This document shows, in pieces, positions 625 through 61,801 of a stretch of 64,000 nt of DNA. Where the stretch lies: positions 289,850 to 353,849 of the forward strand of contig JACTAT010000045.1 of the NCBI GenBank assembly GCA_014526335.1, in the 5' to 3' direction. The notes under the pieces are model-generated. The model was given only the letters and a program-made list of their open reading frames with translations, was not told where the DNA came from and made no database searches. This stretch comes from Chrysaora quinquecirrha (taxonomy: Eukaryota > Cnidaria > Scyphozoa > Semaeostomeae > Pelagiidae). The stretch's first letter is position 1. Every line of letters begins with the position of its first letter. The translations under genes and the position numbers were made by a program.

Positions 625-2544
625 ATGGCTTCGTCGTCTGAGGATGTGATGGGTGTGCTGAAGTTTCGTAAGTTGAATGGATCGAATTATAGGTCCTGGG
701 CATTCAACATGCGTTTGTACTTGGAAAGTTTGGATTTGTTTGAACATGCCGATGGTTCTGCTGAAACTCCGACTAGTACTGGAAACGATGCCGCAGCCCT
801 ACTACGAGCTTTCAACTCCAGAGCAGAGAAGGCGTGGACATCAATTTGTCTGGCTGTGGAACCCGAGCAGCAAATTCATGTGAGAGAAACGACAACTGCA
901 AAGGAAGCCTGGGATGCCTTAAAAAGCCAATTTGCTCGTGAATCTATTCTTCAGAAAATAAGATTGCGACAGCAATACTATTCTTGCCGTTTTCAAAGTG
1001 GTAATAGTATGTTAGAACACATAACGCATTTAAGGTCGCTCCATGACCAGCTCAAAGAGATGGGGGTATCTGTTGATGATAAAGAACTGGCAATGACACT
1101 GCTTGCAAGTTTGCCAGAAGAGTTCAAACCATTAATCACTGCTCTTGATGCTGTTGGAGAAGATCAGTTATCCTTTGAAAAAGTGAAAGGAATGCTGCTT
1201 AATGATGTGGATCGTAGTTTTGATGGTACCCTTGGTACAAGAAAATCTGAAGATGCTTTTTCTGCAAGAAGATCAATGGGATATAGTAGGAGAGGAAGAC
1301 AAGGACGTGGTTCTAGTGGCCCTGTGAGTCATGAGGTAAAGTTTGATAAACCTTTTCGTGGAACTTGTCATTATTGCAAGGAGAAGGGACATTTTGCAAG
1401 AGACTGCCCTAAGAAAAATCACAAAGAGAATGCACAGCGTGGTAATGGCAAATCATCTGCAAATTGTGCTGAAAAGAATGATTCTGATCCAGTTATCTAT
1501 GTGGAAGCTATCTGTGAGGAAGCTTTGATTACCTCTGATGAAATGGATAATTCTGGGTGGATCATAGACTCGGGAGCAACTCAACACATGTCTTTTGAAA
1601 GAGATTCCTTATCTGATTATATTGAATTTAGGCAACCGTGCACTGTTAATCTTGGTGATAATGGTTCTATTTTAGCTTATGGAAAAGGTACTTACCATCT
1701 TCTTGCTGATCTAGATGAAAATTCTCAGCCCATTCCTCTGCATGATGTTCTTCACTTACCTGATCTTAAAAAGAACTTGTTGTCTGTAAGAGCCATGACA
1801 AAACTTGAAGCTTCTGTTGAATTCAAAGGAAACCAATGCCGAATTTCAAGAAATGGAAAGTTGTTAGCAGTTGGAGAGATGCAAGGGAAACTGTATATGT
1901 TGAAAATTGTTTCTGATGAGCATATAAATATTGCAAAAGATGAAATTGATATCCATTTGTGGCATAATCGTTTTGGTCATTTGGGGATGGACAATGTTGA
2001 AAAATTAATGAAAGATAAAATGGTAGAAGGAATGAAATGTAGTACCAAAGTTGGAAGAAAATCTGTTTGTGAGCCTTGCATTATGGGAAAACAACACCGT
2101 GTCCCATATTCCAAAGGAAGTGCAACTCGTGCAACTAGACCATTTGAAGTTGTTCATAGCGACGTCTGCGGACCAATGTCTGTTGATTCTCTTGGAGGAT
2201 CTAAATATTTTATCACCTTTATTGATGATTATTCAAGGTACACTCATGTTTATTTCATCAAACACAAACATGAAGTGATGGACAAGTTTAAAGAGTTTGT
2301 TAATTTCACAACAAATGTTACTGGAAAACAAATGAAAACACTGGTGACTGAAAATCTTGTGAAAACATTACGTTCAAATAATGGTGGTGAATATTGTTCA
2401 AAGAAGTTTGACGCTTACATGAAAGAGAATGGGATTGTACACCAAACCACAGTTCCCTACAGTCCTGCTCAAAATGGCGTTGCAGAAAGAATGAATCGCA
2501 CCCTTGTGGAAACAGCTCTGTCAATTATACAGGTCACGAAATAA
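625..2544 (+). CDS. Copia gag-protease-integrase, 5' part of the split polyprotein
   Basis: The ORF opens with a Copia-type gag domain (residues about 1-200). It has a CCHC zinc knuckle (CHYCKEKGHFARDC, near residue 248), the protease active site DSGA (near 313) and an HHCC integrase zinc region (H..H..C..C, near 445-490). The integrase core follows, with the first catalytic Asp in HSDVCGP and the Glu in NGVAERMNR. The second catalytic Asp is replaced by Asn (residue 585, RSNNGGE instead of the family RTDNGGE), one G-to-A change. The coding sequence meets the nested insertion at 2525; the last six codons and stop belong to the insert. The start ATG is the first in frame after the primer site. 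Confidence 0.95.
   Translation: MASSSEDVMGVLKFRKLNGSNYRSWAFNMRLYLESLDLFEHADGSAETPTSTGNDAAALLRAFNSRAEKAWTSICLAVEPEQQIHVRETTTAKEAWDALKSQFARESILQKIRLRQQYYSCRFQSGNSMLEHITHLRSLHDQLKEMGVSVDDKELAMTLLASLPEEFKPLITALDAVGEDQLSFEKVKGMLLNDVDRSFDGTLGTRKSEDAFSARRSMGYSRRGRQGRGSSGPVSHEVKFDKPFRGTCHYCKEKGHFARDCPKKNHKENAQRGNGKSSANCAEKNDSDPVIYVEAICEEALITSDEMDNSGWIIDSGATQHMSFERDSLSDYIEFRQPCTVNLGDNGSILAYGKGTYHLLADLDENSQPIPLHDVLHLPDLKKNLLSVRAMTKLEASVEFKGNQCRISRNGKLLAVGEMQGKLYMLKIVSDEHINIAKDEIDIHLWHNRFGHLGMDNVEKLMKDKMVEGMKCSTKVGRKSVCEPCIMGKQHRVPYSKGSATRATRPFEVVHSDVCGPMSVDSLGGSKYFITFIDDYSRYTHVYFIKHKHEVMDKFKEFVNFTTNVTGKQMKTLVTENLVKTLRSNNGGEYCSKKFDAYMKENGIVHQTTVPYSPAQNGVAERMNRTLVETALSIIQVTK
2518..2525 (+). repeat. 8-bp target duplication of the nested element, left copy
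   Basis: CTGTCAAT here is repeated at 8104-8111. Counting it once keeps the Copia integrase frame open. Confidence 0.85.
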
Positions 2545-3239
2545 GATATATGATTCTGTCCAAGAAATACGAAATTTCAATCCTAACGCATAACAATAAT
2601 CCACTTTATGCACCAATCAAATTCTATTAAAATAATAGGGGGTCTACAAACCATGAAATCGCTAAATAATATACCCCAAGCAGCAATCTGTAATCAAAAA
2701 AATTGCTAAGCAGCTGCCGATTAAAACCACTCTTCTCGTGGACATGACACTAACGTCTCCAACAGCTTGTAAATCTGCTTTCATCCGGTAGCTCGATCGC
2801 TTGGATACATTTCCTGCTTTGTTTTCTAGCGTCCGAGCCCTCTTCACGCACGTTCTTTGCGAAATTTATAATGTATGTAGCCCTCTTTTCGCTCATAAGC
2901 TGCAGCCTCATGCCGCAAAAATGACGTCATTACACACCAAAAACCGCAAGCGGCAACTTTTTCTGAAGCCCAAAACGGTAGAAAAAGCACCGCGAAATCC
3001 GTGAGCCGGAATCAAAATAGGGGTCGAAGGCGTGAAGCCGCAAAACTATAATAGGCCCCCATTATATGCGAAACATGAAAGAAAACCGGACCCGGGAGAC
3101 TTCTCACTGCCTTCATGCTCATTTCAATTTCCAAAGTCAAAACCATTTCATTAGCGAATGCTTTTAAAGTTGAATTGTATTTGATTTGAAAATCTTTAGT
3201 GAGTAGGAAACTATACAATCAGCGGCATATCAAAAGTAT
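2545..3239. other. Non-coding left part of the nested element
   Basis: Only short ORFs occur on either strand, with no domain or splice pattern I can defend. It shows no tandem structure. Confidence 0.4.
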
Positions 3240-3512
3240 ACCAAACCTTAATATCCAATGCATCGAACCTAATAATGCAAACAGATGGAAGCCCAACAAA
3301 CCTAACAGAAACAGACTTACAAACCTAACAGCCTAACAGACCTTACAACCTAACAGCCTAACAGACCTTACAACCTAACCACTTTACAGTCCTAACAAGC
3401 TAACAGCCTAACAAACCTAACAGCCTAACAGACCTTACAACCTAACAGACCTAACAACCTAACAGACCTAACAACTTTAACAACCTAACAGGCTAAAAAA
3501 GCGTAACAAACC
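3240..3512 (+). repeat. CCTAACA-type minisatellite
   Basis: Short A/C-rich units such as CCTAACAGACCTTACAA are repeated imperfectly. No frame is conserved. Confidence 0.8.
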
Positions 3513-3516
3513 ATAA

Positions 3517-3540
3517 ACTTGTATGATGAGAATCATACAA
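3517..3540. other. Perfect 10-bp inverted repeat (hairpin)
   Basis: CTTGTATGAT and ATCATACAAG are separated by four bases. The stretch from here to 4110 is otherwise unrecognised, non-coding sequence. Confidence 0.6.
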
Positions 3541-4110
3541 GACATATCTGACTATCTGCTACTCCTCAGTGAATATGCAGGAAGGTGTAAGAAGAAATCA
3601 ATCAACGATTTTTAGCAGTCTTCTTAATTTTCTCTCAAAATCATGTTCTTTAGACAGTGAAAAATTCAATAGTATATACTGCAATACACTTTTTTTGATA
3701 AGCAACCGCTCAATAAGCACTAGGGCTGAACTGACCTTACCATTAAGCAACTCGAGGGCTCAATTGAATTACTGTAAGCAACTAAGAAGTCAAACAACCA
3801 AGCTTAGTCTCTTTCTTGTGTTAGGAAATTGTTCTTCGTTGTTATGTTTTGCATTTTGAAGTTCGTTAGTTAACGTTTTTCCACTTACTGTCTCCCAAAA
3901 GTCATGTTGTAGTCCTAACAGATGACGATTTTGATCTGCGAAGTCAGGGGTGGTTGATAGGTACAAAAAATGTAAAGCAACTTTTAAGGAACTTTGAGGG
4001 CTGAAATGTCTGAAATTTCAAGCTTTGAGGGCTGGACGAAAGTCATGTTGCTTATTAAAAAAAAGTGTATTTACATAGTTATTTCTCTAATATTGACGAA
4101 TTTACTATTT

Positions 4111-4265
4111 TTATTTACAGCTATTGTTTGGACAGTAAAAGGTTTTGTCCTTGACATCGCTGAGCTTCACACTTGCACATCTGAAGTGCCACCATTGATT
4201 GCAGTTGTCACACTGCACTCCAGAGTGAACCTTTTTCATACACTTTGCACACACATCTTTTCCAC
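4111..4265 (-). CDS. Terminal exon encoding a PHD zinc finger
   Basis: The acceptor TTCTTTTAG precedes the exon, which ends in TAA. Its 50 residues show the C4HC3 order: CAKC, CDNC, HFRC with the preceding WW, and CPNNSC. This is the standard PHD spacing. Being short and last, the finger is at the C-terminus. Confidence 0.75.
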
Positions 4266-7200
4266 CTAAAAGAATTGAGGGGAAGATGCCACGTATAAAA
4301 GATGAAACAATTGTAAGATGCATATTGGCTGGATGTCATAATTTGCATATAGCTGCTACAGCAGTTATGTAAACATACGTACCCTCAGGGTTTTTTAGTT
4401 TTTTGGTGAAAGTCTCCGTCCTCGTTATCTCGCCTGAAAAAATTATCTAATCACTGAACGTATTCAAAGACGAAATTTTACAAAGAAATTTCTTTCAGAA
4501 ATTTTGTGCAACTTTTTATTTCTAAGAGCATTTCTGATATGTTGCTACAAGCCATGATCTATGATGAGCAGAATTTAGGCTTGAAATAAGCTATAAATTA
4601 AATAAGAAATAAGTATCGACAAACACACGGTTTTTGTGTTCACTAACTGCTAAATTTAATGAAGATTTTAAAGAACACAGTAACATGTCTTACCAATAGC
4701 AGCTCTTTGTGCCACAGAAAATTCTTTCCCTGCAGAAAGAAACAATTTGTCAATCGCAATTAATGCAAATCAATCCTTGCAAATTCATAGAAAATGAGAT
4801 GTGATGTAACCATAAAACAGAATGGAGAATAAACAATTTTTTGATAAAAGGATAAAAGGATAAAAGGCATTTGATGCCTTTAGGATAAAAGGCATTCGAT
4901 TGCCTGTATTTACATACATGGATAGGAGTCTTCATAGATAGAAAAAAAATTGAAATTGATCTCGCACCTGACATCGATTCCGTGACCCGAACGTCAACCT
5001 CGTTCACAGGTTTTGCTCCGACATTGCTCTTCGGTTCAACATCTTAAAATTTCAATGAATGATATCATGACGAGTTTATGTCTTCAGAATAAGAAATAAC
5101 TATTTCGACTTTCTGTTAATACAATATATGGAGATAGCTAGAAACATAAAATTGATCTCGCACCTGACATCGATTCCGTGACCCGAACGTCAACCTCGTT
5201 CACAGGTTTTGCTCCGACATTGCTCTTCGGTTCAACATCTTAAAATGACAATGAATGATATCATGACGAGTTTATGTGTTCAGAATAAGAAATAACTATT
5301 TCGACTTTCTCTTAATACAATATATGGAGATAGCTAGAAACATAAAATTGATCTCGCACCTGACATCGATTCCGTGACCCGAACGTCAACCTCGTTCACA
5401 GGTTTTGCTCCGACATTGCTCTTCGGTTCAACATCTTAAAATGACAATGAATGATATCATGACGAGTTTATGTCTTCAGAATAAGAAATAACTATTTCGA
5501 CTTTCTGTTAATACAATATATGGAGATAGCTAGAAACATAAAATTGATCTCGCACCTGACATCGATTCCGTGACCCGAACGTCAACCTCGTTCACAGGTT
5601 TTGCTCCGACATTGCTCTTCGGTTCAACATCTTAAAATGACAATGAATGATATCATGACGAGTTTATGTCTTCAGAATAAGAAATAACTATTTCGACTTT
5701 CTGTTAATACAATATATGGAGATAGCTAGAAACATAAAATTGATCTCGCACCTGACATCGATTCCGTGACCCTAACGTCAACCTCGTTCACAGGGTTTTC
5801 TCCGACATTGCTCTTCGGTTCAACATCTTAAAATGACAATGAATGATATCATGACGAGTTTATGTCTTCAGAATAAGAAATAACTATTTCGACTTTCTGT
5901 TAATACAATATATGGAGATAGCTAGAAACATAAAATTGATCTCGCACCTGACATCGATTCCGTGACCCGAACGTCAACCTCGTTCACAGGTTTTGCTCCG
6001 ACATTGCTCTTCGGTTCAACATCTTAAAATGACAATGAATGATATCATGACGAGTTTATGTCTTCAGAATAAGAAATAACTATTTCGACTTTCTGTTAAT
6101 ACAATATATGGAGATAGCTGGAAACATAAAATTGATCTCGCACCTGACATCGATTCCGTGACCCGAGCGTCAACCTCGTTCACAGGTTTTGCTCCGACAT
6201 TGCTCTTCGGTTCAACATCTTAAAATGACAATGAATGATATCATGACGAGTTTATGTCTTCAGAATAAGAAATAACTATTTCGACTTTCTGTTAATACAA
6301 TATATGGAGATAGCTAGAAACATAAAATTGATCTCGCACCTGACATCGATTCCGTGACCCGAACGTCAACCTCGTTCACAGGTTTTGCTCCGACATTGCT
6401 CTTCGGTTCAACATCTTAAAATGACAATGAATGATATCATGACGAGTTTATGTCTTCAGAATAAGAAATAACTATTTCGACTTTCTGTTAATACAATATA
6501 TGGAGATAGCTAGAAACATAAAATTGATCTCGCACCTGACATCGATTCCGTGACCCGAACGTCAACCTCGTTCACAGGTTTTGCTCCGACATTGCTCTTC
6601 GGTTCAACATCTTAAAATGACAATGAATGATATCATGACGAGTTTATGTCTTCAGAATAAGAAATAACTATTTCGACTTTCTCTTAATACAATATATGGA
6701 GAGAGCTGGAAACATAAAATTGATCTCGCACCTGACATCGATTCCGTGACCCGAACGTCAACCTCGTTCACAGGTTTTGCTCCGACATTGCTCTTCGGTT
6801 CAACATCTTAAAATGACAATGAATGATATCATGACGAGTTTATGTCTTCAGAATAAGAAATAACTATTTCGACTTTCTGTTAATACAATATATGGAGATA
6901 GCTAGAAACATAAAATTGATCTCGCACCTGACATCGATTCCGTGACCCGAGCGTCAACCTCGTTCACAGGTTTTGCTCCGACATTGCTCTTCGGTTCAAC
7001 ATCTTAAAATGACAATGAATGATATCATGACGAGTTTATGTCTTCAGAATAAGAAATAACTATTTCGACTTTCTGTTAATACAATATATGGAGATAGCTG
7101 GAAACATAAAATTGATCTCGCACCTGACATCGATTCCGTGACCCGAACGTCAACCTCGTTCACAGGTTTTGCTCCGACATTGCTCTTCGGTTCAAGATCT

Positions 7201-7443
7201 TAAAATGACAATGAATGATATCATGACGAGTTTATGTGTTCAGAATAAGAAATAACTATTTTGACTTTCTGTTTATACAATATATGGAGATAGCTGGAAA
7301 CATAAAATTGATCTCGCACCTGACATCGATTCCGAGTCATCGGTAACGGTATCCAGCTCCACAAGCAGAATATCTTCAGAAAAGTCTTCAAATGGAAATA
7401 TAATATTGCTCACAAAATTGTGAATTGAGTTCAATTCCCATTT
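4111..7443 (-). CDS. Spliced gene with 12 duplicated exons and a C-terminal PHD finger
   Basis: Read on the minus strand, the exons are: a 5' exon ending at 7320, twelve 75-bp exons (first bases 7124, 6928, 6732, 6536, 6340, 6144, 5948, 5752, 5556, 5360, 5164, 4968), then 4694-4729, 4383-4433 and 4111-4265. Every junction is AG/GT, and every internal exon begins with two codon bases and ends with one, so all joins stay in frame. Each repeated exon gives 25 residues, roughly VEPKSNVGAKPVNEVDVRV plus TESMS. The tail includes GKEFSVAQRAAI and ITRTETFTKK. The predicted protein is over 400 residues: a long polar repeat tract followed by a zinc finger. The true 5' end is not identified. I do not recognise the family. 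PHD fingers usually read histone tails, so a nuclear role is an inference. Confidence 0.65.
4383..4433 (-). CDS. 51-bp internal exon
   Basis: The acceptor ATTTTTTCAG and donor GTACGT flank an open 51-bp stretch of phase 2/1. It encodes a Thr/Lys-rich peptide (ITRTETFTKKLKNPE). Confidence 0.65.
4694..4729 (-). CDS. 36-bp micro-exon
   Basis: The acceptor TTTCTTTCTGCAG and the strong donor GTAAGA flank 36 bp encoding GKEFSVAQRAAI. Phase matches its neighbours. Confidence 0.65.
4965..7316 (-). repeat. 196-bp tandem array, 12 units, each an exon plus intron
   Basis: The unit start recurs at 4965, 5161, 5357, 5553, 5749, 5945, 6141, 6337, 6533, 6729, 6925 and 7121, then partly at 7317, each exactly 196 bp apart. 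Units are nearly identical. The fifth unit has a paired insertion and deletion that keeps the exon at 75 bp, and a CGG-to-AGG change that is silent for Arg; two units change GTT to GCT. Introns vary slightly too. The period is constant in exon and intron, which suggests recent unequal exchange or amplification of a whole exon-intron module. Confidence 0.9.
7320..7443 (-). CDS. 5'-most visible exon of the PHD gene
   Basis: The first 13 bases match the array exon, then the sequence becomes unique. It encodes an acidic stretch (EDFSEDILLVELDTVTDD). The frame is open back to a stop at 7444-7446. The donor CAG/GTGCGA is the same as in the array. The upstream border is uncertain; AG at the complement of 7398-7399 is one possible acceptor. 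Confidence 0.5.
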
Positions 7444-7446
7444 TCA

Positions 7447-8103
7447 CTTTTTACATAAAAAAGTGGGTCCACTAAACTGCATTCTAGCAATAATATTGAT
7501 TATAACCATGTTTATAGCTGTGTAGGTTGTACATTAGATTTGCAGTACAGTTCGACAGCTAGCATCATAGCAGGCTTGGCTACGAAGAGGGATATTGTTG
7601 TGATTTAGGCAAATTTTTTGTCCACACTATATTGTTTGAAACATGCTACACGTCCATGCATACATTGTACATTATTGCCCCAGACACAGACAGGTTGAAG
7701 AGGAACACAAGTTCAACTTCAAATAGTAGGAACAAGTAAACGTCAGGGGTGCGGGTGCTGTTTGTTAGTATTAGGCCATTTATCTATTATCGTGATATTT
7801 ACTTAGGCCATGTTTGTTGTTGTTTAGGTGAAGTTTGCTTAATAAATTCCTTGCGTTTGCAATGGATAACCTACAAATGCAATATATAATGTTTTCCTGT
7901 CTCACCCGGCTCTTCTTGCCTTCCATCAAAGGGCATAATTATGTTGACCATATTGTTTTAGACTTTCATTCGCATCGCCATTACGCCAGTACGCCAGACC
8001 AACGTGGCAGTGGGTCGGGATACCTGCGCTTGCGCATGTTAGGTTGTAAGGGCTAAACAGGAGACCTTACGCGGAGGGCCCATCATATCTCGTGACCCAT
8101 TTG
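7447..8103. other. Unassigned right part of the nested element
   Basis: It should contain the promoter and any first exon of the minus-strand gene. I find no convincing coding exon. The right end carries the inverted copy of GGTCACGA. Confidence 0.4.
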
Positions 8104-8111
8104 CTGTCAAT
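8104..8111 (+). repeat. 8-bp target duplication, right copy
   Basis: CTGTCAAT, identical to 2518-2525. Confidence 0.85.
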
Positions 8112-10323
8112 GATGTCACAGTCAGGAATGCCAAAGAAATTTTGGGCAGAAGCAGTTAATACTGCAACATATTTGAGAAATAGAAGTCCTACTACTTCAC
8201 TAGATGGAGTCACACCATTTGAATCATTGTTTAACCGAAAACCTGATGTTTCAAACCTGAAGGTATTTGGATGTTTAGCATATGCACACATTCCAAAGGA
8301 TCAACGCAAGAAGTTTGAAGAAAATTCTCGCAAATCTGTATTTGTTGGCTATCCAAATGAAACCAAGGGATATAAACTATATGACCTAAAAGCTTGTTGT
8401 TTTATACGAAGTCGAGATGTAATATTTGCCGAAAATGATTTTCATGATTTTGAAAATGGACATTCTGTAAACTCTGATTTGCAATTCTTTTATCCAGTTG
8501 ATAATGATTCACAAACTGTACTTCCAAATGTATCAGATGTTGTAGCTGTCACTGATGAACCACATAGTGATCAAGCTGAGCCTGAAATTGTTGAAGAACC
8601 TGCTGTATTGGACAATGAACCAGTGGGAGTTACTTGTGAAGACAATTTTATGAGAGAAGTCAATAATTTGCCTGCACAAAGACAGCGTAGGCCTCCAGTC
8701 AGATTTATTGAAGAAGAGTTTTATGCTGCAGAAACTCTTACAGCTGACATAAATGAGCCAAGTGATATCTTTGAAGCTTGGAGAGGAGATTATTCTACCA
8801 ATTGGAAGGATGCGACAAACTCTGAATATGACTCATTGTTAAGTAATCACACTTGGGACCTTGTTCCATTGCCTGAAGGAAAAAATGTAGTCGGTAGTCG
8901 ATGGGTATTTAAAGTTAAGCGTAATGCTGATGGTTTGATTGAAAAATTCAAAGCTCGTCTTGTGGCACAAGGGTACTCACAGTCTCATGGTCTTGATTAC
9001 CAGGAAGTTTTTTCTCCAGTTGTGCGTTACAGCTCGATTAGATCTCTGTTGGTCATGGCAAATATTTATGATTGGGAATGTCATCAGATGGATGTGAAGA
9101 CTGCATTCTTACAAGGAGACCTTGATGAAGAAATATACATGAAGCAACCTGATGATTATATAAACAAGAAGAAACCAAACCATGTATGCAAGTTAAACAA
9201 AAGTATCTATGGATTAAAGCAAGCTGCACGTTGCTGGAATCACGCAATAGACAGTTTCCTGAAGTCAGAAGGCTACAAAAACAGCAGTGCAGATTCATGT
9301 TTGTATATAAAATCAGTGAAGCAGAGGAATGGTAAGGTTGATTTTATCATTCCTGCTCTTTACGTTGATGACATCTTGTTGTTTTCTAACAACATTGATT
9401 TGCTGATGGAAGAGAAAATTTCACTTGGAAAAAGATTCAAAGTTGAAGATTTAGGTGAGGTGCATTACGTTCTTGGTATGTCTGTGAAACGAGATCGCAA
9501 GTCAAGAACACTTTCTATCAGTCAGCCGAAGTATCTTGAGGGAATTCTGAAGAGATCCAATATGGATAAATGCAAACCTGTTTCAACTCCGTTGGAGCAA
9601 GGACGGAAATTCCAACAATTATCAGAAGATGAAAAGCCTGTTAATGTTCAAGGTTATCAAATGATCATTGGATGTTTGACTTATGCAACTACTGCTACAC
9701 GTCCAGATTTAGCTGCAGCAGTTGGCATACTTTCGAAATTTATGGCAAAACCTGGGAAAGATCATTGGACAGGTATAAAGAGAATCTTACGATATGTTCA
9801 AGGAACATTGAATTATGGTCTTGTTTATTCTGCTACTGATAAGAGCCATGTATTGGTTGGCTATTCTGATGCAGATTGGGCCGATGATCTAGATACGCGT
9901 CGCTCAACGTCAGGATATGTCTTCCAAATTCAAGGTAACACTGTCAGTTGGTGTAGTAAAAGACAAGCATCTGTATCAAAATCTTCTACTGAAGCTCAAT
10001 ACATTGCATTAAGTGGAGCCAGTCAAGAAGGTATTTGGATTCGAAGATTACTAGCAGATATTAATCTTGAGCAAAAGGGACCAACTATTATTCTTGAAGA
10101 CAATCAGGGAGCAATAGAGCTAGCTAAGAACCCTAAGTTTCATAATCGTACAAAACATATTGACGTAGCATATCATTTTATCAGAGAGCAAGTTCATCTA
10201 AAAGCTATTTCTGTTGAATATTGTCCTACAAAACATATGTTGGCAGATATAATGACAAAGGGACTTGGAAAAATTGCTTTTGAAAATTTTAGAGACAGTT
10301 TAGGAATTAAAAAGATAAATTGA
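8104..10323 (+). CDS. Copia integrase C-terminus, reverse transcriptase and RNase H
   Basis: This continues the polyprotein in the same frame as 625-2525. It begins in the integrase C-terminal region (KKFWAEAVNTATYLRNR). Then comes the Copia RT (KARLVAQGYSQ, DVKTAFLQGDL, the catalytic YVDD in ALYVDDILLF near 9360) and a Copia RNase H (YSDADWADD, STEAQYIAL, DNQGAI, KHIDVAYHFIR). It ends at TGA 10321-10323. No internal stop or frameshift is visible, so only the nested insertion and the integrase Asp-to-Asn change mark it as defective. Confidence 0.95.
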   Translation: MSMMSQSGMPKKFWAEAVNTATYLRNRSPTTSLDGVTPFESLFNRKPDVSNLKVFGCLAYAHIPKDQRKKFEENSRKSVFVGYPNETKGYKLYDLKACCFIRSRDVIFAENDFHDFENGHSVNSDLQFFYPVDNDSQTVLPNVSDVVAVTDEPHSDQAEPEIVEEPAVLDNEPVGVTCEDNFMREVNNLPAQRQRRPPVRFIEEEFYAAETLTADINEPSDIFEAWRGDYSTNWKDATNSEYDSLLSNHTWDLVPLPEGKNVVGSRWVFKVKRNADGLIEKFKARLVAQGYSQSHGLDYQEVFSPVVRYSSIRSLLVMANIYDWECHQMDVKTAFLQGDLDEEIYMKQPDDYINKKKPNHVCKLNKSIYGLKQAARCWNHAIDSFLKSEGYKNSSADSCLYIKSVKQRNGKVDFIIPALYVDDILLFSNNIDLLMEEKISLGKRFKVEDLGEVHYVLGMSVKRDRKSRTLSISQPKYLEGILKRSNMDKCKPVSTPLEQGRKFQQLSEDEKPVNVQGYQMIIGCLTYATTATRPDLAAAVGILSKFMAKPGKDHWTGIKRILRYVQGTLNYGLVYSATDKSHVLVGYSDADWADDLDTRRSTSGYVFQIQGNTVSWCSKRQASVSKSSTEAQYIALSGASQEGIWIRRLLADINLEQKGPTIILEDNQGAIELAKNPKFHNRTKHIDVAYHFIREQVHLKAISVEYCPTKHMLADIMTKGLGKIAFENFRDSLGIKKIN

Positions 10324-15526: not shown

Positions 15527-18110
15527 TCAATTAATGAACCCTAAATTTTGTATATAAACACGACATAATCTGCAGGTGCAATTGTCGGCATTCCATTTTT
15601 TGATGTTTTGTTTGAATTGGTTAAGGGACTGGCAATTTTTTAGTTCATTAGATAGGGATGACCATAGAATGCAACCTCTGTATTTGATATCTTCTGTTCC
15701 ATAAGCTAATGTGCGAACTCGTGGCAGTTTCAGATGATTTGTATTTCTCAACGAGTAGTGTGCTGATTTTTCTTCAAATATATCTTTCATAAATGAAGGG
15801 CTTATATTGTTTTTTGTTTTATAAACTTCAATCATCAGCAAACGCAGATTATGTTGATGTATGTTTACAGAGTTAGTTTTTTGCAATAATGTATTGAAAC
15901 TGCTGACACTATCTTTGCAAACAATTCTGAGCGCACGTGTATTTTATTAATTTTTGCATTCAAAGTCCTGTCATGGAACATCCATATAAGTGGACAGTAG
16001 CTGAACTGGGATTTAATGAAAGAATTCATCAATAATTTCAGTTGTTCAAAGTCCATATAGTTTGACAGACGTGCAAGAGCATGTAGCTTTTGGGCAGCTT
16101 TTTTACAGACTTCGTTAATATGAGTACGAAAGTTAAGTTTCTTATCAAAAGTAACTCCGAGAAGTTTCTCCTTTTCACTTTCTGTGATTTCGACATCACT
16201 TCCAATATTTAGGCTTACATCATCAGTTTTGTTCCAAACATCATGAGATGACATTTTTCACCGTTAAGTTTCATGCAATTATCTCAAAACCATTTCGAAA
16301 GAACTGTCATGTCTGCCTCTAACTGATGTAGAATTGTATTTGGCTCAGGATGGCATGCAAAGATAGTGGTATCGTCAGCAAAATTACATACTTGGCTATC
16401 AACAAAGAGAAAAATATCATTAACAAATACATTGAAAAGAAGAAGACCGAGGACAGATCCCTGAGGCACGCCTTTTTTGATGTCATTCCAAGAGCTAAAT
16501 TTATCGTTTATTTTAACTCTTTGTTTCCTGTTTGATAAATAGTCGTAAATGAGACCTAGAGCATCAGCAGACAGTCCGTGAGCATGAAGTTTTGCAATCA
16601 GGAGATTGTGGTCTATGCAATCAAATGCTTTTGAGAGATCCATCAGAAGAGCTCCTGCAAGTCCACCATTATCAAGGCTACTTTTACAGCTTTCTAAAAA
16701 GTTTAATAGGGCATACTGGGTGTTATAACCTTTACGAAACCCACAAAGGAGTGAGGAGAAAAGGTTGCCCATAAAGTAGTATAATTGATCATATTTAATA
16801 CGCTCAAAAATTTTTGATATTGCTGGGAGAATCGGCTTGTAGTTTTCTTTATTCAAGGATCCCCTTTCTTATGAAGGGCTGTAATATTAGCCAATTTGAG
16901 CTTATCTGGAAATGTACAATCAATCACACAGGTATTGAAGATATATGTCAGAGGATGGACAAATAAGTCTACATTATCTATTAATATATTAGCTGGGATT
17001 GTCGACTGAGGAGCTGCTTTTTTAGGATTCAGGCTGATTATTTGCTCATGCATTTCATTCACAGTAACTTGTCTAAATCATCCACATTCTCCTTAATTTT
17101 AAGAATACTTGGGTGTGAGCGAAAAATTTCAGCAGTTCTTTCCCCTGGATCTGCTGTATGATCTAGGTCGTCATTCGCATAAGCTATGCCCAGAGATTCA
17201 GTTATATTCGCAAAATATTCATTTAGAATATCAGCGATGTTTTTATCGTCAGACTGTATTTGATCATCCTCACTTAGTAGTGTAATTCTCGTATGACCAT
17301 GCACTTTATTAGAGAAGAGAGGCTTTACAGTTTTCCAGAATAGTCTCGAGTCACTTATTATTTTTGGATCAAGTTTATTGTAGTACGATTTTTTACTTTC
17401 TCGAAGTAATTTAACGCATAGATTCCGTTGTTTCCTAAAAGCTTCCCAATTATCATCACTTCGTCGTTTATTGAATATATTTTTTAAACGCGATCTCTTC
17501 ATGATGGCTTTTCTAAGAGGTTTTGTCATAAAAGGCGAGTCATTTGCTCTTATATGCTTGTTTTTACATGGGGCATGTTTATCAAGTATTTTTCTTGTGA
17601 TTTCATCAAAAGTATTAAAATTTTGATCAATTGGTAACACAGAATCTAGTTCATTTTGTAGCTCCTCTCTAAAGCTGAAATTATCAAAATTTTTAAAATT
17701 TCTTTATGTAATGATCTTCGGTCCTTTCTTATGAATTCCACCATTTAATTCTGTAACTATCATTGCATGAAAATCTGATAAACCTGTCTCGATTGTTGTA
17801 GTTTTAGCAAATTTTGAAGCATTATTCGTAAGAATAAGATCAATGCACGTTGGGTTATCTGATTTAAAGCATGTTGGTTCATTAACAATATTATCGAGGT
17901 TATAATTGTTACAAAAGCCACGCATATTTATGTTGTCCACAGTCAAATTTTAAATCTCCAATTACTACAATGTTTTCAATCGTATTTGACAAGGTAATGG
18001 TCCAAATTCTTACCTAGGTTGTCAAAGAAGCGTGTCTCTGATTGAGATGGAGGACGGTAGATGCCAATAAGTAACCATTTCATTTTCTGTAAATTTATTT
18101 CCAAGGCTTT
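15527..18110 (-). pseudogene. LINE ORF2: APE endonuclease remnant, RT and C-terminal domain
   Basis: Visible blocks from the 5' side: the endonuclease motif LLIGIYRPPSQ (about 18060), VVIGDL after a frameshift, the endonuclease end IDLILTNNA (17840) and the RT N-terminal region (17059-17640). Then come RT motifs FDCIDHNLLIAKL, GVPQGSVLG and the catalytic FADD (near 16380-16400), and two further ORFs (15865-16254, 15527-15886) of the C-terminal part. At least four frameshifts separate them. The endonuclease middle is missing at the 18111 junction. Confidence 0.8.
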
Positions 18111-18111
18111 C

Positions 18112-18672
18112 ATTTCATCTTACACAACTCAGGGTTGGACTCAGTATATTAAACTTTCACAAATTCAAGCATAATTTTAGGGATACGATAAACCCCATGT
18201 GCCCCACCAACGATGGTATCGAGGATGCGGAACACTTTTTGTTGCTCTGCCCTTCTTTTGATATTCAACGACGAGATCTTCTCGCTGGAGTTGTCGAATT
18301 ATTACGACCTTTCGAATATACAAATCTTCCAAACAACGTTTTAATGCAGATTTTACTGTATAGTGACAAAGACCTTCCCAATGAGGTTAATGGAAATATA
18401 ATACTGTTAACTCTACAATTCAACCATAACACACGTCGGTTCGATTAGGAATGTTAAACTGCGCTATAAAAAGCCACTCAACCACCATGTCCCCCTTTTT
18501 AGTTTCTTTTGTAATTGTATGTAGTTTAAAACATTTTTATGTAAGGCCGTGAGGTAGTCATAGTATTATGCTCCTCACGGTATCGTCCTTGTAGTATTGT
18601 AATGTAGTTTGTAGGTAGTGTAATCCGTAATTCGTTTTGTAAATTGTTAATGGCATATATATAAAAAAAAAA
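18112..18672 (+). mobile_element. 3' tail of a second LINE, opposite strand
   Basis: The plus-strand ORF to 18448 carries a LINE C-terminal region (CPTNDGIEDAEHFLLLCPSF, a Cys/His motif). A 3' UTR and an A-rich end at 18660-18671 follow. It is 5'-truncated. Left of it is LINE endonuclease sequence and right of it the start of the same ORF2, so it landed inside the first LINE, with part of the endonuclease lost. Confidence 0.7.
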
Positions 18673-18868
18673 GGATTATCGCATTCTTACTCGAGAGCCT
18701 AATTTGCTTGAGTATACTATTGGCATCAAGGTCCTCAGTTTCATTATCAATATTAACTATGATGTCAAATCTACTCAAATTATAATCAGATCTCAAATTG
18801 ACTGGAACTATTTCTTTATCATAAAAATCGTCAATAATAATAATATCACTACACCTTTCATATGAGCA
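18673..18868 (-). pseudogene. LINE ORF2 N-terminal leader
   Basis: The open minus-strand stretch directly after the ORF1 stop encodes DANSILKQIRLSSKNAII, a typical leader before the endonuclease of cnidarian CR1-like LINEs (from general knowledge). It is cut at 18673 by the second LINE. Confidence 0.5.
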
Positions 18869-19690
18869 TCAGTCTTTTGAAATTGAAATAATGTTTGCAG
18901 CAAACCTACCATCGCCAAAATTATTGAGATGCAAACTCCGATTAAGATGTCTTCCGGGATCTATGTTCCTGTTATCGCTGAACATCAAGTTATTTATTTC
19001 ACAGAGTCTTTGTAATAGTCTATTGATATTCAAAATTCGCCGAATTAAGCATTCATCTTCTCGTTCAATAATACCTGACACAAAGACTTGATTTTCGTCT
19101 GTCCTTAGTGACTTTGCCAGATCAATGATTTTGTCTGCAACCTTCGCATCTACTTTCTCGCTGCCAAGATCGTTTGCTCCTGTGTGCAAAACAATACGAT
19201 CTGGTTTTGCTTGTAATGATGGAATGGCATAAAATGAAATATCGTCTGTTGTTGCCCCGGAGAGAGTCTTTACGAACAACTTTTCTCCGTTTTTTAAAGA
19301 CTTTTTCCTTCGCCAGCTTTGTCAATTCTTGGTCATTGAGTCGTCAAGTACTACCGTTGTTGTTGTTGACTTGTTATCCTTGTTGTTTCTACTTCTAGTG
19401 GATTCTGTTGAATCTGCCAAGACCTCTACTGCTGTATCGTCGTCTAGGCCACACCTGCTTGCGACCGATTTTCTATCAGGCCGTTTCTTTTGCCTTCGGA
19501 TTTCTTGGATAGCTTTCAACACATCAGCATATTTTACATTCTCTGTTCGCTGTTTTACAAGGCTGCCATTAATACTACAGCATTTGCTGCATAGTTTCTT
19601 ATTAGAATCACTAATATTAACATCCAAACTAGTAATGTTGCAGCTTTCGCATTGTGCACCTGTCATGCCAAAAGAAAGTAAAAATGCCAT
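18869..19690 (-). pseudogene. LINE ORF1 with SGNH-hydrolase-like domain
   Basis: The ATG at 19690 opens a Cys-rich N-terminal half (CESC, CSKCC). After a frameshift near 19325 comes an SGNH-like half: VVLDDSMTK in place of the usual GDS block, SGATTDDI, and LHTGANDL for the GxND block. Esterase-type ORF1 proteins are known in CR1 elements. The active-site Ser is still present in DDS, although the preceding Gly is Asp. Confidence 0.7.
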
Positions 19691-19858
19691 ATTTTCATGA
19701 CATATTTTCAAATTTGCTAGGGTAGTCAAAAAAATTTCATCCCAAACGTCACGTGGATGATGACGTAAAGAGTAACAGTAAGAAAAATGAAAGCCAGTCA
19801 ATCAAAACAGCATGTAAACCGAATAAATGTAATTCAGAAGTTACATCCCAAAGCCAAA

Positions 19859-19874
19859 CTTGTTACGTAACAAG
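19859..19874. promoter_or_regulatory. 16-bp perfect palindrome CTTGTTACGTAACAAG
   Basis: Its centre TTACGTAA is the PAR-bZIP consensus. It lies just upstream of the LINE ORF1 on the minus strand, so it may be LINE 5' sequence. The rest of 19691-20589 holds no gene that I can see. Confidence 0.35.
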
Positions 19875-20589
19875 CTCTCACGTGTCAAAAGTTCCAACGA
19901 CGTACAGGTGACTTCCTCTTGTCTTGATCGTGATCAATCATAAGTCAGCAGCAGGCTTTAATATTTCTGTGGCGTGGGAAGGTGTTGATATTATATAGGT
20001 TGAGGTAGAATAGAGAGGGATAAAGAATTGTACGTTGTGAGACACCTTGGTCTAATGGATCGTAGTTAAGCGTTAATCAGTAGCAGTCAGCAATCGTATT
20101 TAATGTGCGTTGTTTGTTTCGATTGAACAGATTATTTTTAAAACCCAAACCAGCTTGTTTCCTAAAATTTCTAAATCATGGTAATTTGGCTTAACGCGAG
20201 AAACCCAAGTTTACCCAGGGTTTCGTTAGATTGTTGAGAAAAATCCCTATCTGGATGAAGATGGAGCAGATCTTTGGATATGATCTATCTTACTAGGATT
20301 TAAAATGATCTACTCGTAGATTTAGCAATAGATTTACATCGGAGTAGCTACTAAACTCGCTTTCCAACTAGCATTCTAATTGAACGTGGATGTTCATTTT
20401 CTCTTCTGCAATAACAAACATTAATGAATATTTAGATGTTGAAAGTAGAGGTGTCTTTTTGTCAAATTACCACACCTATTTCAGAGTAACCATATTTTGG
20501 AATATCAGTTTTAAATCGTGGTATGCTATTCCATTGTGGTATGAAGGTGTGGAGAAATCAGTCGTAGTGTAAATATACTCGGACTTATC

Positions 20590-22307
20590 AAGGCTGTTTC
20601 TGACACCGTATTAGACATGATGGTCACCACTTATCATGACAAGCCTTTGATATTTAGTTCGGCAACGTTTCGGGAGAGATCCGTCTCCCATCAACGGGCA
20701 ATGAGAAATGTAGTTTCTTTCCTATTTACTGCAAAGGTCGGATCGAAAGGTGTAAACTTAAACGGACCTGCGAGGAAGCTTGGGTTTTTTTTGCGCTCAA
20801 TTTCTAAGATTTCCAACAAACAAAATTAAGTGCCAAGGTCTGAAGCTTATCAAAGGCTTACATGACTTAAAAAAATTATTTCAGATGAAACATATTGGAA
20901 GATTAAACCGTCTGATTCTCATGCTCCACGTTTCTATGGACTTCCCAAAACACGCAAAGAGGGTTTTCCTATCAGACCTATAGTGTCCATTAGTGGTACA
21001 CCAATAAAAAACCTCTCAAAGTATATTGCGGAAATCTTGAGACACTACATCAAGAAAAGGGGACATGCAAAGAACTCAAAGGAATTTCCGGAATTCATCC
21101 GTAATGTTGAGATAGAAGACGATGAAATGATGATATCTTTCGATGTCACCTCGCTATACACTAACGTGCCTATTAAGAACTCTTTGAGAATCATAAGTGA
21201 TTTACTCCGAAAAGACAGAGGTCTAAGCCAAAATCTGCTATACCTGTGGAGAAGTTGATTGAAATGATAGAATTCGACTTAACTACCAATTGGTTCAAAT
21301 TCAATGGGATGTTTATCTCACAAACAGATGGAGTAGCAATGGGAAAACCTGCCTCTTCTGTTGTTGCTGAGATTTTTATGCAAGAAAAAGAATCTTTTGC
21401 CCTTGATCCATACATTGAGAAACCAAAAGTATGGGAGAGATACGTAGATGATGTGTTCGTGATTATGAAGAGGGACAAGATGGAAGATTTCTATAAGCAC
21501 ATCAATTCTCTACATGTGAAATTGAAGTTCACTACAGAGGTAGAGAATGATGAAAAACTAGCCTTCCTTGACACTTAGATTCAACGGAATGCCAATAAAA
21601 GTCTAAGCGTATCAGTGTACAGGAAGTCCACTCACACTGACCAATACCTCAATGCGAACTCGCATCACTTAGACAGTGTCAAAAACAGTGTCATATCTTC
21701 TCTCTTCAACAGAGCAAAATGAATCACGAGAAACCTTGATGATCTAGATAACGAGTACAAAAAGATCTCGAGTGTTCTAAAGACCAATGAATATCAACAA
21801 GAAGATATGCGCAACGCATGGTCACGAGAAAAATCTCAAAGCCTAGACAGAATACTGAGGCTGACAAAGAGGAGCCTAAATTTTCTATGAACCTGCCATA
21901 CATCAGAGGGACAAGTGAAAAAATCCGTCGATCTTTGTCTAAGCAAAATACAAGTTGTAGTTTTTATTCCCTTAATAGACTTAAAAAGTCGCTTTCCAGG
22001 CCAAAAGACAAAATTGACGATCTCGAGAAATCAAACATTATATACAAACAACCATGTAAAGGTTGTCCTAAATCATACATAGGACAATAGAAAGACAGGA
22101 GCCAGGCTCAAAAAACATAAATTCAATGTGACCCATGGTCGAATTGACAAAAGTGATCTTGCCAATCATTTTTGGACGGAAAAACACCAGATGGATTAGG
22201 ATAACATGGGAGACGGATCTCTCCCAAAACGTTACCCAACTGAATATCAAAGGCTTATCATTATAAGTGGTGACTATCATGTCTAATACGGTGTCAGAAA
22301 CAGCCTT
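20590..22307 (+). mobile_element. Penelope-like element with inverted ends and RT
   Basis: About 100 bp at 20590-20691 is repeated inverted at 22206-22307. Each end carries a GGGAGA...TCTCCC stem followed by CGAAACGTT (left copy, complementary strand), resembling the hammerhead-like part of Penelope pseudo-LTRs. The interior holds an RT and the start of a GIY-YIG region. No clear target duplication was found. Confidence 0.8.
20840..22090 (+). pseudogene. Penelope-like reverse transcriptase and GIY-YIG start, broken
   Basis: RT blocks in order: HAPRFYGLPKTRK, IRPIVSISGTP, motif A FDVTSLYTNVP (near 21140), motif B' GVAMGKPASS (21330) and the catalytic YVDDVFV (21440). One frameshift lies near 21235 and stops lie near 21576 and 21719. 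The tail IIYKQPCKGCPKSYIGQ matches the start of a GIY-YIG domain, then the frame collapses. Length fits a Penelope element missing its N-terminus. Confidence 0.85.
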
Positions 22308-22329
22308 ATTCGGCCTATATGAAAATTGG

Positions 22330-23000
22330 AGATTTTTTTGTCGAGAACCATCTCAGACAAGTGTTTCTCATACCCATACGTCAAGGATCAGATAGAGAAC
22401 CACGGAAACAGCTTTATAGAGCCCAGTGATTTGCAGAAAATCGGCGTCTCTAGAAGCCAATTCGTCTAGCTAGAAAACAACGTAAACTACAGTATGGCGA
22501 TCATTGTTTTTTTGGAAAATCGACGTCTAAGGACGCCAATTTATCATGCGTGAAGCATCAGCTAGAAAACCATGGAAACAATTGTATAGAGCCAAGTGTT
22601 TTGCGGAAAATCAACGTTTCCGGACGCCAATTTGTCTAGCTAGAAAACAACGTAAACTATAGTATGGCGATCATTGTTTTTGCGGATAATCAAAGTCTCT
22701 GGACCCCAATTTATCTAGCTAGGAAACAACATAAGCTATTGCATAGTCTGAGTTGTACAAAACTTCAAAATTGCGATGATCCGCTTTAGTCTATTGTTTC
22801 GGTCTGTTTCTGACGTTCATACTCCGAGGAGTGTCAGACGAAAAAAGGTTTTAAGTATGCCCGAAAATGATTCCGCTATTCTTCGAAATTATAAGCTATT
22901 GTATGGCGATCATTGTTTTTGTGGAAAATCAACGTCTCACGACGCCAATTTATCATGCGTCAAGCATCAGCAAGAAAGACATGGAAAACATTGTATGGAT
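22330..23000 (+). repeat. 80-90-bp repeat cluster (at least five units)
   Basis: The core GGAAAATCAACGTCTC, then GGACGCCAATTTATC, recurs at about 22437, 22515, 22606, 22684 and 22920. It is followed by AGAAAACCATGGAAACA-like and ATGGCGATCATTGTTTT blocks. Two unit subtypes alternate (one with TCTAGCTAG, one with ATGCGTCAAGCATCAG). No reading frame is kept across units. The same family recurs at 26.04-26.37 kb. Confidence 0.75.
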
Positions 23001-23586
23001 TCTATTGTTGTTACGTAGTGTTTGTAGATTTTCCAGACCTTAAAGCTCTAAGTTACAGATTTATAAGCAAACAAGAATTCTTTCACTCCCTTTTATTCAT
23101 TAAAACACATTCTATGATAACTTGACATTAATGACTCTTATATTCAGTCTTAGAAAACGTCTTTATTTTTGAAGTATTCTTCAAGACATCAACGGATATA
23201 AAAATAACGCACGTCAGGGGACTATGTAGTCTTTAAATCGATCATTTTCTTTGCTAATAGACTAGCAAAAGATGGCAACTGTAACAAATTGTAATGTGAG
23301 TTCAAAGCGAGTTCAAGGCTATTTTTCAAACACGTCGTCTCGTACCTGTTGATTTCATTTAAGTAATTGAAGCGATTCAAATACTTAATCGTCATTACAC
23401 CATAAACGAAGGAAAGAGAGGGAAACCGTATTTCAGCCGTTCTGTTTCACGATGTAACGATAAAAAAGAAGCTTCTGGAAATATTGACTTTAAACTATTT
23501 CTCTACAGATATTGTAGTTTCTCAATAATGCCGATGTTGAAATTATTAGTTTCAGAAATAATTGATTCTTGTAAGAGAACTTAGGG

Positions 23587-33535: not shown

Positions 33536-34100
33536 AGTTAGGTGTGTGCTTGAAAGTAAATCAGGTTTGGGTTTCCAGAATTCAATGCAAAGGTGATAAA
33601 GACGGGGGTTTTTTGCCATGTCAATGGTCCTCATATTCGCCAGAGCGGATATGTGTAGTTTTCCTAGCTTACCCCCTGGCTTGAAAAATTTCCAAAAAAT
33701 GGTCAAAGGGTAGCTTTAGGTGTGCACTTGAAAGTAAATTAGGTTTGGGTTTCCAGAATTCAATGCAAAGGTGATAAAGACTGGGGTTTTCTGTCATGTC
33801 CATGGTCCTCATATTCGCCAGAGCGATATGTGTAGTTCTCCTAGCTCACCCCCTGGCTTGAAAAATTTCCAAAAATGGTCAAAGGGTAGCTTGAGATGTG
33901 CGCTTGAAAAAAAATCAGGTTTGGGTTTCCAGAATTTAATGCAAAGGTGATAAAGACGGGGGTTTTCAGCCATGTTAATGGTCCTCATATTCGCCACAGC
34001 GGATATGTGTAGTTTTCCTAGCTTACCCCCTGCCTTGAAAAATTTCCAAAAATAGTCAAAGGGTAGCTTTAGGTATGCGCTTGAAAGTAAATCAGGTTTT
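33536..34100 (-). repeat. 177-bp subterminal repeat, right arm (three units)
   Basis: Starts at about 33541, 33719, 33894 and a partial unit at 34071. Each unit is open on the minus strand for about 59 codons (ANMRTIDMAENPRLYHL core). Confidence 0.8.
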
Positions 34101-45985: not shown

Positions 45986-46516
45986 CAGAGAGTTTGTCCC
46001 ATGCGTAGAATACGCTCAACTGGAGTCTAAAATTGTAAATCAATCTTTTGAAGCTATAATTTTTCAAGCCTAAATGGAGACGGGGCTATAATTTTTGAAG
46101 CCTAAATGGAGACGGGGCTATAATTTTTTAAGCCTAAATGGAGACGGGGCTATAATTTTTGAAGCCTAAATGGAGACGGGGCTATAATTTTTGGAGTCTA
46201 AATGGAGATGGAGCTATAATTTTTGGAGCCTAAATGAAGACGAGGCTATAATTTTTGAAGCCTAAATGGAGACGGAGCTATAACTATTGCAAACATAACA
46301 TACAACATCTATCGATTCGGTCGAAATAATAAAGAAATCATGGAATGGAACAATGCGGGAAATAGTTTCATAACTTTTAACGATGGTGTTTTATACAAGG
46401 GGGTGATATTGAAAGGCAGATTGCCATGTTGTTTTAAACATAGAAGAATTTGGGTACCTAAAACAACAACACACAACCCTCTAGAAGATCTACAAGAACA
46501 TTTAACAATATTAATT
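45986..46516 (+). pseudogene. Inverted duplicate of the 46.5-46.95 kb gene, disrupted
   Basis: The plus strand repeats blocks of the minus gene: GAGAGTTTGTCCC...GAGTCTAAA (45986), the 32-bp expansions, then TCTATCGATTCGGTCGAAAT, ATCATGGAATGGAA and AGAAGAATTTGGG. Stops occur near 46010, and the block of tandem repeats splits it. Its ORF 46340-46522 is a fragment. Confidence 0.6.
46050..46283 (+). repeat. 32-bp tandem repeat, about seven copies
   Basis: The unit begins GCTATAATTTTTGAAGCCTA and ends with AATGGAGACGGG. Copies are nearly identical near the left and drift at the right. The unit derives from the coding sequence around ESKWRRSYNY in the right arm gene. Confidence 0.85.
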
Positions 46517-51390: not shown

Positions 51391-51826
51391 ACTGAACGTT
51401 GTTATACAGTTGTTATTCATGAGATGTTTAAAATTAGGTGAACATTAGTTTGATGTTATAGATATTAGTTTTATGTTATAGCTAGATGTAAATATTATCA
51501 TACTACCATCACCACACTAACACGCTTAAATCATCTTTATTTAAATCACCAATAAAATAAATTAGAATTAACGGTGTAATAGCATATTCTGCCTGATACT
51601 AAACAATTTTTTGTTTCCTTGGAAATCTTAACCCAAATATGATGGGGTTTCAGAAAAAAAATTGGTACTTGCACATTTTGGTGAAATGTCTTTATTAAAT
51701 AGGGGGTATTATAAAATGCTATGGGGGTGAAAAACTTCAAAAACATACAATAATCCCCCCCCCACAAAAGAGTATTGTTTTTAACCATTTCGAATCTTTT
51801 CTTTTTTCAGAGAAATGCTACTACAG
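51391..51826. other. No gene seen
   Basis: AT-rich with a C9 run near 51757. Intron or intergenic sequence left of the large transposon. Confidence 0.35.
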
Positions 51827-51834
51827 ATGCTGCT
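51827..51834 (+). repeat. 8-bp target duplication, left copy
   Basis: ATGCTGCT, repeated at 59582-59589. Confidence 0.85.
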
Positions 51835-51960
51835 AGGAGGGTGCCCGCGCCCCAGCCACTGGCCGGGGCATGGCCGGGGCTTGCCGGGGCCATTGGCCGG
51901 GATATTTTCGCAACTTTTCCATTTATTTTGTTGGCCCCAGCCAGCCCCGGCCAGAGATTA
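51835..51960. repeat. Left terminal inverted repeat, GC-rich
   Basis: Runs of GGCCGGGGC and GCCCCGGCC; inverted at 59519-59581. Bases 51961-52577 between it and the first gene are non-coding. Confidence 0.85.
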
Positions 51961-59518: not shown

Positions 59519-59581
59519 TTTTTCGGCCCCGGCCAGCCCCGGCCGTGCCCCGGCCAGTGGCCGGGGCGCGGGCACCCTCCT
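59519..59581. repeat. Right terminal inverted repeat, GC-rich
   Basis: Complement of 51835-51900 with few changes. Confidence 0.85.
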
Positions 59582-59589
59582 ATGCTGCT
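59582..59589 (+). repeat. 8-bp target duplication, right copy
   Basis: ATGCTGCT. Confidence 0.85.
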
Positions 59590-59622
59590 AGAGTGGCCTG
59601 TGAATGTAATATTTCAATTTAC

Positions 59623-59926
59623 CTTTCAAGAAGTGGTAAAGGATGTCAAACCATTTCGTACCCAGAGGCACCTCAATGGTAACTTTATATTGGTCATTGG
59701 CAACACTGGGAAGATCTAATCCTCGTGGTGTCAGATTGCTGCCATAAGTGTACCCAGTTGCCTCCATCTCAATGCATTCGCCGTCTTTGCTAAATGCTTG
59801 GCACTTGTTGAAAATCCAGAACTTGAATTCTGTTTTGTTCTGTACGTATTGGTTTCTCCCAATAACTTGCACTGCCCGCGTGCACATCTCTTGCGTGACA
59901 TCGTCTATCAGACTCACAAGGAGACT
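59623..59926 (-). CDS. Host gene exon, family unknown
   Basis: Acceptor AACAGCTGTAG, donor GAAAG/GTAAAT, open for about 100 codons: SLIDDVTQEMCTRAVQVI, FKFWIFNKCQAF, LTPRGLDLPSVANDQY. Regular composition and good borders support a real exon. The transposon lies in the following intron. Confidence 0.6.
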
Positions 59927-59957
59927 CTACAGCTGTTTTCCTGATAAGGATACTGCG

Positions 59958-60058
59958 TACTTACTAGTGGAAGCCTGATCGAGATCCTCCCCACTCTCCA
60001 GATACCAATTGAAGGTGTTTGTATCAGCAGAGACATTCCAGAGGAAGAAGAATCTCCT
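59958..60058 (-). CDS. Upstream exon of the same host gene
   Basis: Acceptor TTCTTTTTCAG and donor CTA/GTAAGT. In the frame that joins the next exon in phase 0 it reads SSGMSLLIQTPSIGIWRVG. Another frame (FLWNVSADTNTFNWYLESG) is also open but does not match the next phase. Confidence 0.45.
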
Positions 60059-60389
60059 GAAAAAGAATAATGACATGAATATACGAATATGGTTAGTTTC
60101 AGATTTGCAGTATTTTTGGGATTTTTGGTTTCCATTCGTCCATTTTTCAGTTAACTCAGAAAGTATATAACATAAGGCAACCAAATGTGGTTAGAGTATC
60201 TCCTGATAATGAACATTGTTAACTTTTGAATTTATACAGTTAAGATCTCTTGAGTGATACACATGTGGTTCACCTTTTTTGTTGGGGAGATGAACTTGAG
60301 TAAGTCCGGGAGAGTGTTTCTTGATGCATAGGCGCGTGTGCAGAAGCTATTTCCAGCGGCGGCAAATTTACAGCTCTAAACAGAAGTAA

Positions 60390-60627: not shown

Positions 60628-60963
60628 AAGAAAACTAACTAACTAACTAACTAACTAACTTTCTATCTATATCTAACTAACATACAAGCTATGCTTGCAA
60701 CCTAACTAACAAGCTTGCTAACTAACTAACTAACTAGCTAACTAACTGCTAACCCTAACTAACAAAAAACTTATGCTAACTAACTAACTAATTTAACTAA
60801 TCTAACTAACTAACCTAACTAACAAGGTAACTAACAAACGAACTAACTAACTAACTACTATCTAACTAACTAACTAGGTACCTAACTAACTAACTAACTA
60901 ACTAACTTAATAACTAACTAACTAACTATTTAAACAACTAACTACTTAGCTAACTAACTAACC

Positions 60964-60998
<35 letters not shown>

Positions 60999-61099
60999 CA
61001 ACTAACTAACTAACTAACTAACCAACTAACTAACTAACTTTCTATCTTACTAACTAAAATACCAGCTATGCTTGCAACCTAACAAACTAGCTTGCTAAT

Positions 61100-61132
<33 letters not shown>

Positions 61133-61232
61133 CGTTAACTATCAAATATACTAACAAAGTAGCTAACTAACTAACTTTCTATCTAATTAACTAACATACT
61201 AGCTATGCTTGCAACCTAACTAACTAGGTTGA

Positions 61233-61267
<35 letters not shown>

Positions 61268-61283
61268 AACTAACTAACTAACT

Positions 61284-61354
<71 letters not shown>

Positions 61355-61472
61355 CTTTTAATACTAACTAACATACTAGCTATGCTTGCAACCTAACTAA
61401 CCAACTTGCTAACTAACTAACTAACTAACTAACAAACAAACTCGCTAACTATCAAATTTACTAACAAACTAG

Positions 61473-61510
<38 letters not shown>

Positions 61511-61728: not shown

Positions 61729-61763
<35 letters not shown>

Positions 61764-61801
61764 AATACTAGACTATGCTTGCAACCTAACTAACTAGCTT
61801 G

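Follow-up and report, generated by a model that had tools for sequence, protein, structure and literature searches.

The insert and its host element

We analysed a stretch of 64,000 nucleotides of a contig of Chrysaora quinquecirrha, referred to below as the window. It contains an insert of 5,578 bp (2526-8103, with its gene on the minus strand) that is bordered by an 8-bp target-site duplication, CTGTCAAT (2518-2525 on the left and 8104-8111 on the right), and that splits a Ty1/copia gene on the plus strand into a gag-integrase frame (565-2525) and a remainder with the reverse transcriptase (8104-10323). When the flanks are joined without the insert, one copia frame is obtained, VAERMNRTLVETALSMMSQSGMPKKFWAEAV, i.e. 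the empty site is in-frame, and since the copia frames are long and open on both sides the insertion looks young. The duplication, the in-frame empty site and the sister copies described below bear out the claim of a first-pass annotation of this DNA that the array discussed here is carried by a mobile element.

By eye, 16 of 22 positions agree between the two ends of the insert; the 3' terminal sequence is TATACAGGTCACGAAATAAGAT (2526-2547, minus strand). A subterminal minisatellite of the CCTAACAG type is present at 3295-3496 and extends over about 1.4 kb in the longer copy on contig C295. Its motif was also found, inverted, at 8037-8054, near the opposite end of the insert, and the motifs near both ends are possible candidate binding sites for a transposase. 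A repeat within the element was also observed, as positions 3747-4003 match bases 7323-7577 of the C295 element in inverted orientation (84%).

A probable exon array followed by a PHD finger

Within the insert we found a tandem array with a period of 196 bp (4953-7334; 12.2 copies and 98% match according to TRF). On the minus strand, 13 conserved donor motifs spaced exactly 196 bp apart delimit 12 units, each composed of a 121-bp intron and a 75-bp exon (the exons run from 4968-5042 to 7124-7198 in steps of 196 bp). All 12 exons are 75 bp long, have AG/GT borders and are open in the phase-1 frame, the commonest form being DVEPKSNVGAKPVNEVDVRVTESMS, in agreement with the earlier proposal that the repeat is a minus-strand exon array with matching phases. 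The array is preceded by a 54-bp exon (7320-7373, minus strand; phase 1-1) that has the same 3' end as the units. One unit had been described as keeping its 75 bp despite a paired insertion and deletion; the length is indeed kept, but the change (unit 8 in the gene sense, exon 5752-5826) consists of two exchanges, GCA AAA to GAA AAC. The silent codon change that had been noted is present in the same exon as CGG to AGG. Open stretches of this kind are common by chance: of 300 dinucleotide shuffles of the unit, 275 contained an AG..GT stretch of at least 75 bp that was open and symmetric, so the open symmetric frame alone is no evidence for an exon, and the exon reading rests on the gene context and on the related copies.

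Three exons on the minus strand, the limits of which were counted by hand on the printed sequence, follow the array and join in phase 1: a 36-bp exon (4694-4729, phase 1-1), a 51-bp exon (4383-4433, phase 1-1) and the last coding exon, which includes the stop codon and encodes a PHD finger (4111-4265; Pfam PF00628, E 2e-6, 28.2 bits against a gathering cut-off of 24). The path from the array through two short exons to a PHD exon, as first annotated, is thus confirmed with matching phases. Compared with the PDB, the PHD exon was closest to SHPRH (6e-4), followed by SPP1, PHF23, PHF2 and TAF3 (among the best 60 of 62 matches at E 1). Several of these proteins are readers of histone H3K4. A 105-aa query made of the repeat and the PHD finger yielded one candidate among proteins and no match.

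Sister copies of the element

In a search of the 328-Mb assembly, the array unit was found on at least three contigs, i.e. that of the window (C378), C295 and C179, with 12, 10 and 3 units, respectively, as expected from the earlier claim of a variable unit number. On C295, the two ends of the window insert lie 23,586 bp apart. The 5' terminal part of the insert (7405-8103, minus strand) corresponds to the first 722 bases of the C295 element (window 8100-7405, 88%), and window 7412-2526 corresponds, in pieces, to element bases 17819-23586 (about 97%; between 3530 and 5042, for instance, 14 of 1,513 positions differ). Relative to C295, about 17 kb from the middle of the element are therefore absent from the window copy. 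The gap begins within the first exon and ends shortly before the 54-bp exon that precedes the array; its two sides overlap by about 4 bp at the junction (about 7409-7412). The lower identity of the 5' end, only 88% as compared with about 97% for the 3' part, implies that the C295 copy itself was not the parent of the window copy, and this parent may have been a recombinant. This mismatch slightly lowers our confidence in the preferred reading given below. No matching target duplication was found at the ends of the C295 copy. One end of the C295 element (L010 2978-4775) lies inside or beside another coding-like frame, which had no Pfam match.

A second fragment of the family is present in the window itself (51493-51836 and 59582-60273, minus strand). 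It is close to the C179 copy and is interrupted by a stretch of about 7.7 kb that has inverted ends of 58 nt (51834-51891 and 59525-59582). Both this fragment and C179 have sequence in common with C295 only from element base 11642 on; upstream of the shared part they are 98.3-98.5% alike (three longest pieces). In C179 the frames upstream of the second gene (L017 ~7128-8827) differ from those of the C295 subfamily, and neither three of these frames nor one frame further upstream gave a Pfam match above cut-off. An exchange of modules upstream of the second gene in the C179 subfamily is possible. A 3.3-kb AACT-rich tract (60633-63986) adjoins the second fragment.

The arrays of the three copies differ in their state of preservation. 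The C179 copy is more diverged than those of the window and C295. Its three units read in the proposed frame; a 6-base in-frame deletion affects one of them (partly by eye), an insertion cuts another and the third lacks the acceptor AG (both by eye). Of the C295 exons, 6 of 10 are open and 4 carry a 1-bp deletion leading to a stop. Loss of frame or splice sites in related copies, named in the first-pass annotation as something that would refute its proposal, was thus found in part (the four frameshifted exons of C295, and in C179 one lost acceptor and one unit cut by an insertion), with the other six C295 exons retaining the frame. One C295 array intron is 8 bases longer, and units of 195 and 204 bp are present there, which speaks against a nucleosomal reason for the 196-bp period; the resemblance to a nucleosome repeat that had been pointed out is therefore not favoured as an explanation. 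Column 90 of the unit is G in 10 of 12 window units and in 0 of 10 C295 units, and column 132 is C in 8 of 10 C295 units and in 1 of 12 window units. These differences point to an origin of most units after the separation of the window and C295 copies, i.e. to a separate amplification of the array in the two young copies.

Coding content of the long copy

The C295 element encodes, on the non-array strand, a CxC5 cluster (PF18718; 43.2 bits, cut-off 26.9, E 5.2e-11), together with pieces that resemble the KDZ domain (PF18758; 21.1 and 21.3 bits, below the cut-off of 26.6) and CxC6 (PF18721; 17.5 and 15.8 bits, below the cut-off of 27.5). Joining the pieces left KDZ and CxC6 below cut-off. With CxC5 above its cut-off, the element is probably a KDZ/Zisupton-like DNA transposon; the KDZ-domain region falls in the part that is missing from the window copy. 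The CxC5 exon as a query retrieved, among 348 candidates, one protein, 99% identical, on a contig of 1,252 bases (source 'ncbi').

On the array strand of C295, a second gene of many exons includes the array. One exon reads GSPGCGKS, which we take to be a Walker-A pattern. Besides this Walker-A-like exon, the gene has short exons with similar ends that form a linker, and a PHD finger at the C-terminus. The model of this gene is incomplete, as the region from the Walker-A exon to the array could not all be joined in phase and the first exon is uncertain. No Pfam family was found above cut-off for the pieces of the second gene, the Walker-A exon had no match in the PDB at E 1, and a 538-aa conceptual query gave none to E 1e-3 among the 7,997 candidates listed. 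The transposase pieces and the second gene occur together in C295 only, and the C295 copy may be chimeric or nested. The view of a single element is weakened by the restriction of the sequence shared with C179 and the window fragment to bases from 11642 on, and by the missing target duplication of C295.

Tests for constraint on the second gene and on the repeat exon

We compared the codons of second-gene exons of C295 with those of C179 and of the second window fragment. In all four exons examined dN was lower than dS, with dN/dS of about 0.32, 0.30, 0.13, 0.22 and 0.09 in five comparisons of upstream exons. The first two (dS/dN 0.177/0.057 and 0.187/0.056) concern one exon in two near-identical copies and are not independent; the others were 0.284/0.038, 0.275/0.060 and 0.572/0.052, of which the last covers 99 bases. 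One stop codon was present in each of three of the five comparisons, and gap columns in three of the five. By these low ratios the second gene has the appearance of a genuine gene, although the copies compared are decaying.

For the repeat exon itself, comparison with the C179 units gave dN/dS values of 0.45, 0.92 and 2.4, and finding three of three C179 units open had a simulated joint probability of 0.41 without selection, which is not significant; the array is hence without clear coding constraint, and selection as an explanation of the open C179 frames was dropped. Inside the young arrays the differences are too few for a dN/dS estimate. The proposed frame is the only one of three that is open in all four unit sequences compared.

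Interpretation

Our preferred reading, to which we assign a probability of roughly 0.6, is that the array consists of exons of a transposon gene, was amplified recently and is probably untranslated in the window copy. A single 75-bp exon, symmetric (phase 1-1), would have been tandemly amplified together with its 121-bp intron in the second gene of the element. Owing to this symmetry, the frame survives the gain, loss or skipping of units, and unequal exchange or slippage could thus extend the linker with little penalty. The window copy would be a non-autonomous derivative sitting in a copia element. The splicing of the array exons, a KDZ-type mobility of the element and the unequal exchange are inferred. 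The PHD protein would be a chromatin-reading helper of transposition and, by analogy with RAG2 in RAG transposons (PMC4411706), may guide or protect transposition through chromatin. A bolder version, in which a giant KDZ-like transposon carries a PHD accessory protein with a linker lengthened separately in each young copy by tandem amplification of exon and intron (3, 10 and 12 units) as a tunable chromatin-reading arm, and in which even deletion derivatives may express this protein, seems to us quite improbable.

Alternatively, the array could be a satellite that grew in an intron of the transposon, with an accidental 75-bp frame that was never an exon. The frequency of such frames among the shuffles, the frameshifts in C295, the lack of clear constraint on the repeat exon and the short satellite arrays known inside DNA transposons (Tribolium Rehavkus-1_TC, PMC10218199) would fit this idea. 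Against it speak the 54-bp exon with the 3' end and phase of the units, the three downstream exons that keep AG/GT borders and phase up to a PHD frame, and the one frame of three that is open in all four unit sequences compared, and we regard it as unlikely. Still more doubtful is the first proposal, in which the window copy itself makes a PHD-finger protein with some 300 residues of repeats. The element's 5' end with its ATG is kept and all 12 exons are open, and a GTGAGC resembling a donor, 28 bases downstream of the start of the ATG (by eye), is in phase with the array, so that a transcript rescued by a cryptic donor in the first exon is conceivable. However, only 40 bases separate this site from the next exon, the gene has lost its 5' half, and the ATG at 7441, two bases short of where the annotated feature had ended, reads MGIELNSQFCEQYYISI, i.e. 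17 codons and then TGA (7388-7441, minus strand, across the junction). The short frame, the frameshifted exons of C295 and the shuffles all argue against a working protein, and most likely the window copy does not make the full protein. Least probable, in our judgement, is a Rehavkus/Mutator-like rather than KDZ nature of the element: it does share with Rehavkus the PHD finger and a minisatellite close to the 3' end (PMC6446971), but the target duplication is 8 bp rather than 9 and CxC5 is above cut-off. Moreover, no Pfam match to a Mutator-type transposase was found in the pieces scanned, the gene models of which are incomplete.

Relation to known systems

Tandem units of exon and intron with a variable copy number occur in the kringle IV region of LPA; there the units are large and belong to a host gene, whereas the 196-bp unit found here lies in a mobile element. 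Like KDZ elements (PMC12730594, PMC9297572), the element has an 8-bp target duplication (reported for Zisupton and Dileera in PMC12730594), a CxC5 cluster and multi-exon genes (reported for Zisupton in PMC9297572). In fungi, an additional gene (TET/JBP) is present in some members of KDZ. The extra gene of the present element differs in its Walker-A-like exon, amplified exon and PHD finger, and the element itself in its length of about 23.6 kb and in a KDZ domain that scores below cut-off.

Rehavkus, a Mutator-related group, likewise has a PHD finger, and a minisatellite precedes its 3' end (PMC6446971; here 3295-3496, and longer in C295), and one of its families has short satellite arrays (PMC10218199). 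It differs in its 9-bp target duplication and in having the PHD finger in the transposase (PMC6446971, PMC10218199); in these excerpts its satellite lies in the inverted termini and is not described as exons. TransibSU and the RAG1L-RAG2L elements resemble the present case in that a second gene stands beside the transposase and RAG2 has a PHD finger, and differ in the beta-propeller of RAG2 and in 5-bp instead of 8-bp duplications; an exon array is not mentioned in the passages of PMC4411706 considered. In the literature, nothing was found that joins Zisupton, PHD finger and transposon, and among the matches listed for tandem exon duplication with transposase none was on such a case by title.

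The locus suggests how a satellite-like array can arise from a coding exon within a transposon, in copies that differ at only 14 of 1,513 positions beside the array. It may also represent a further DNA transposon whose second gene bears a PHD finger, comparable in this to the RAG1-RAG2 transposons. Provided that the exons are spliced, the number of units would determine how long the protein of a mobile element becomes. Elsewhere in the window, other tandem arrays were observed at 33538-34099 and 46053-46283, with periods of 177 and 32.
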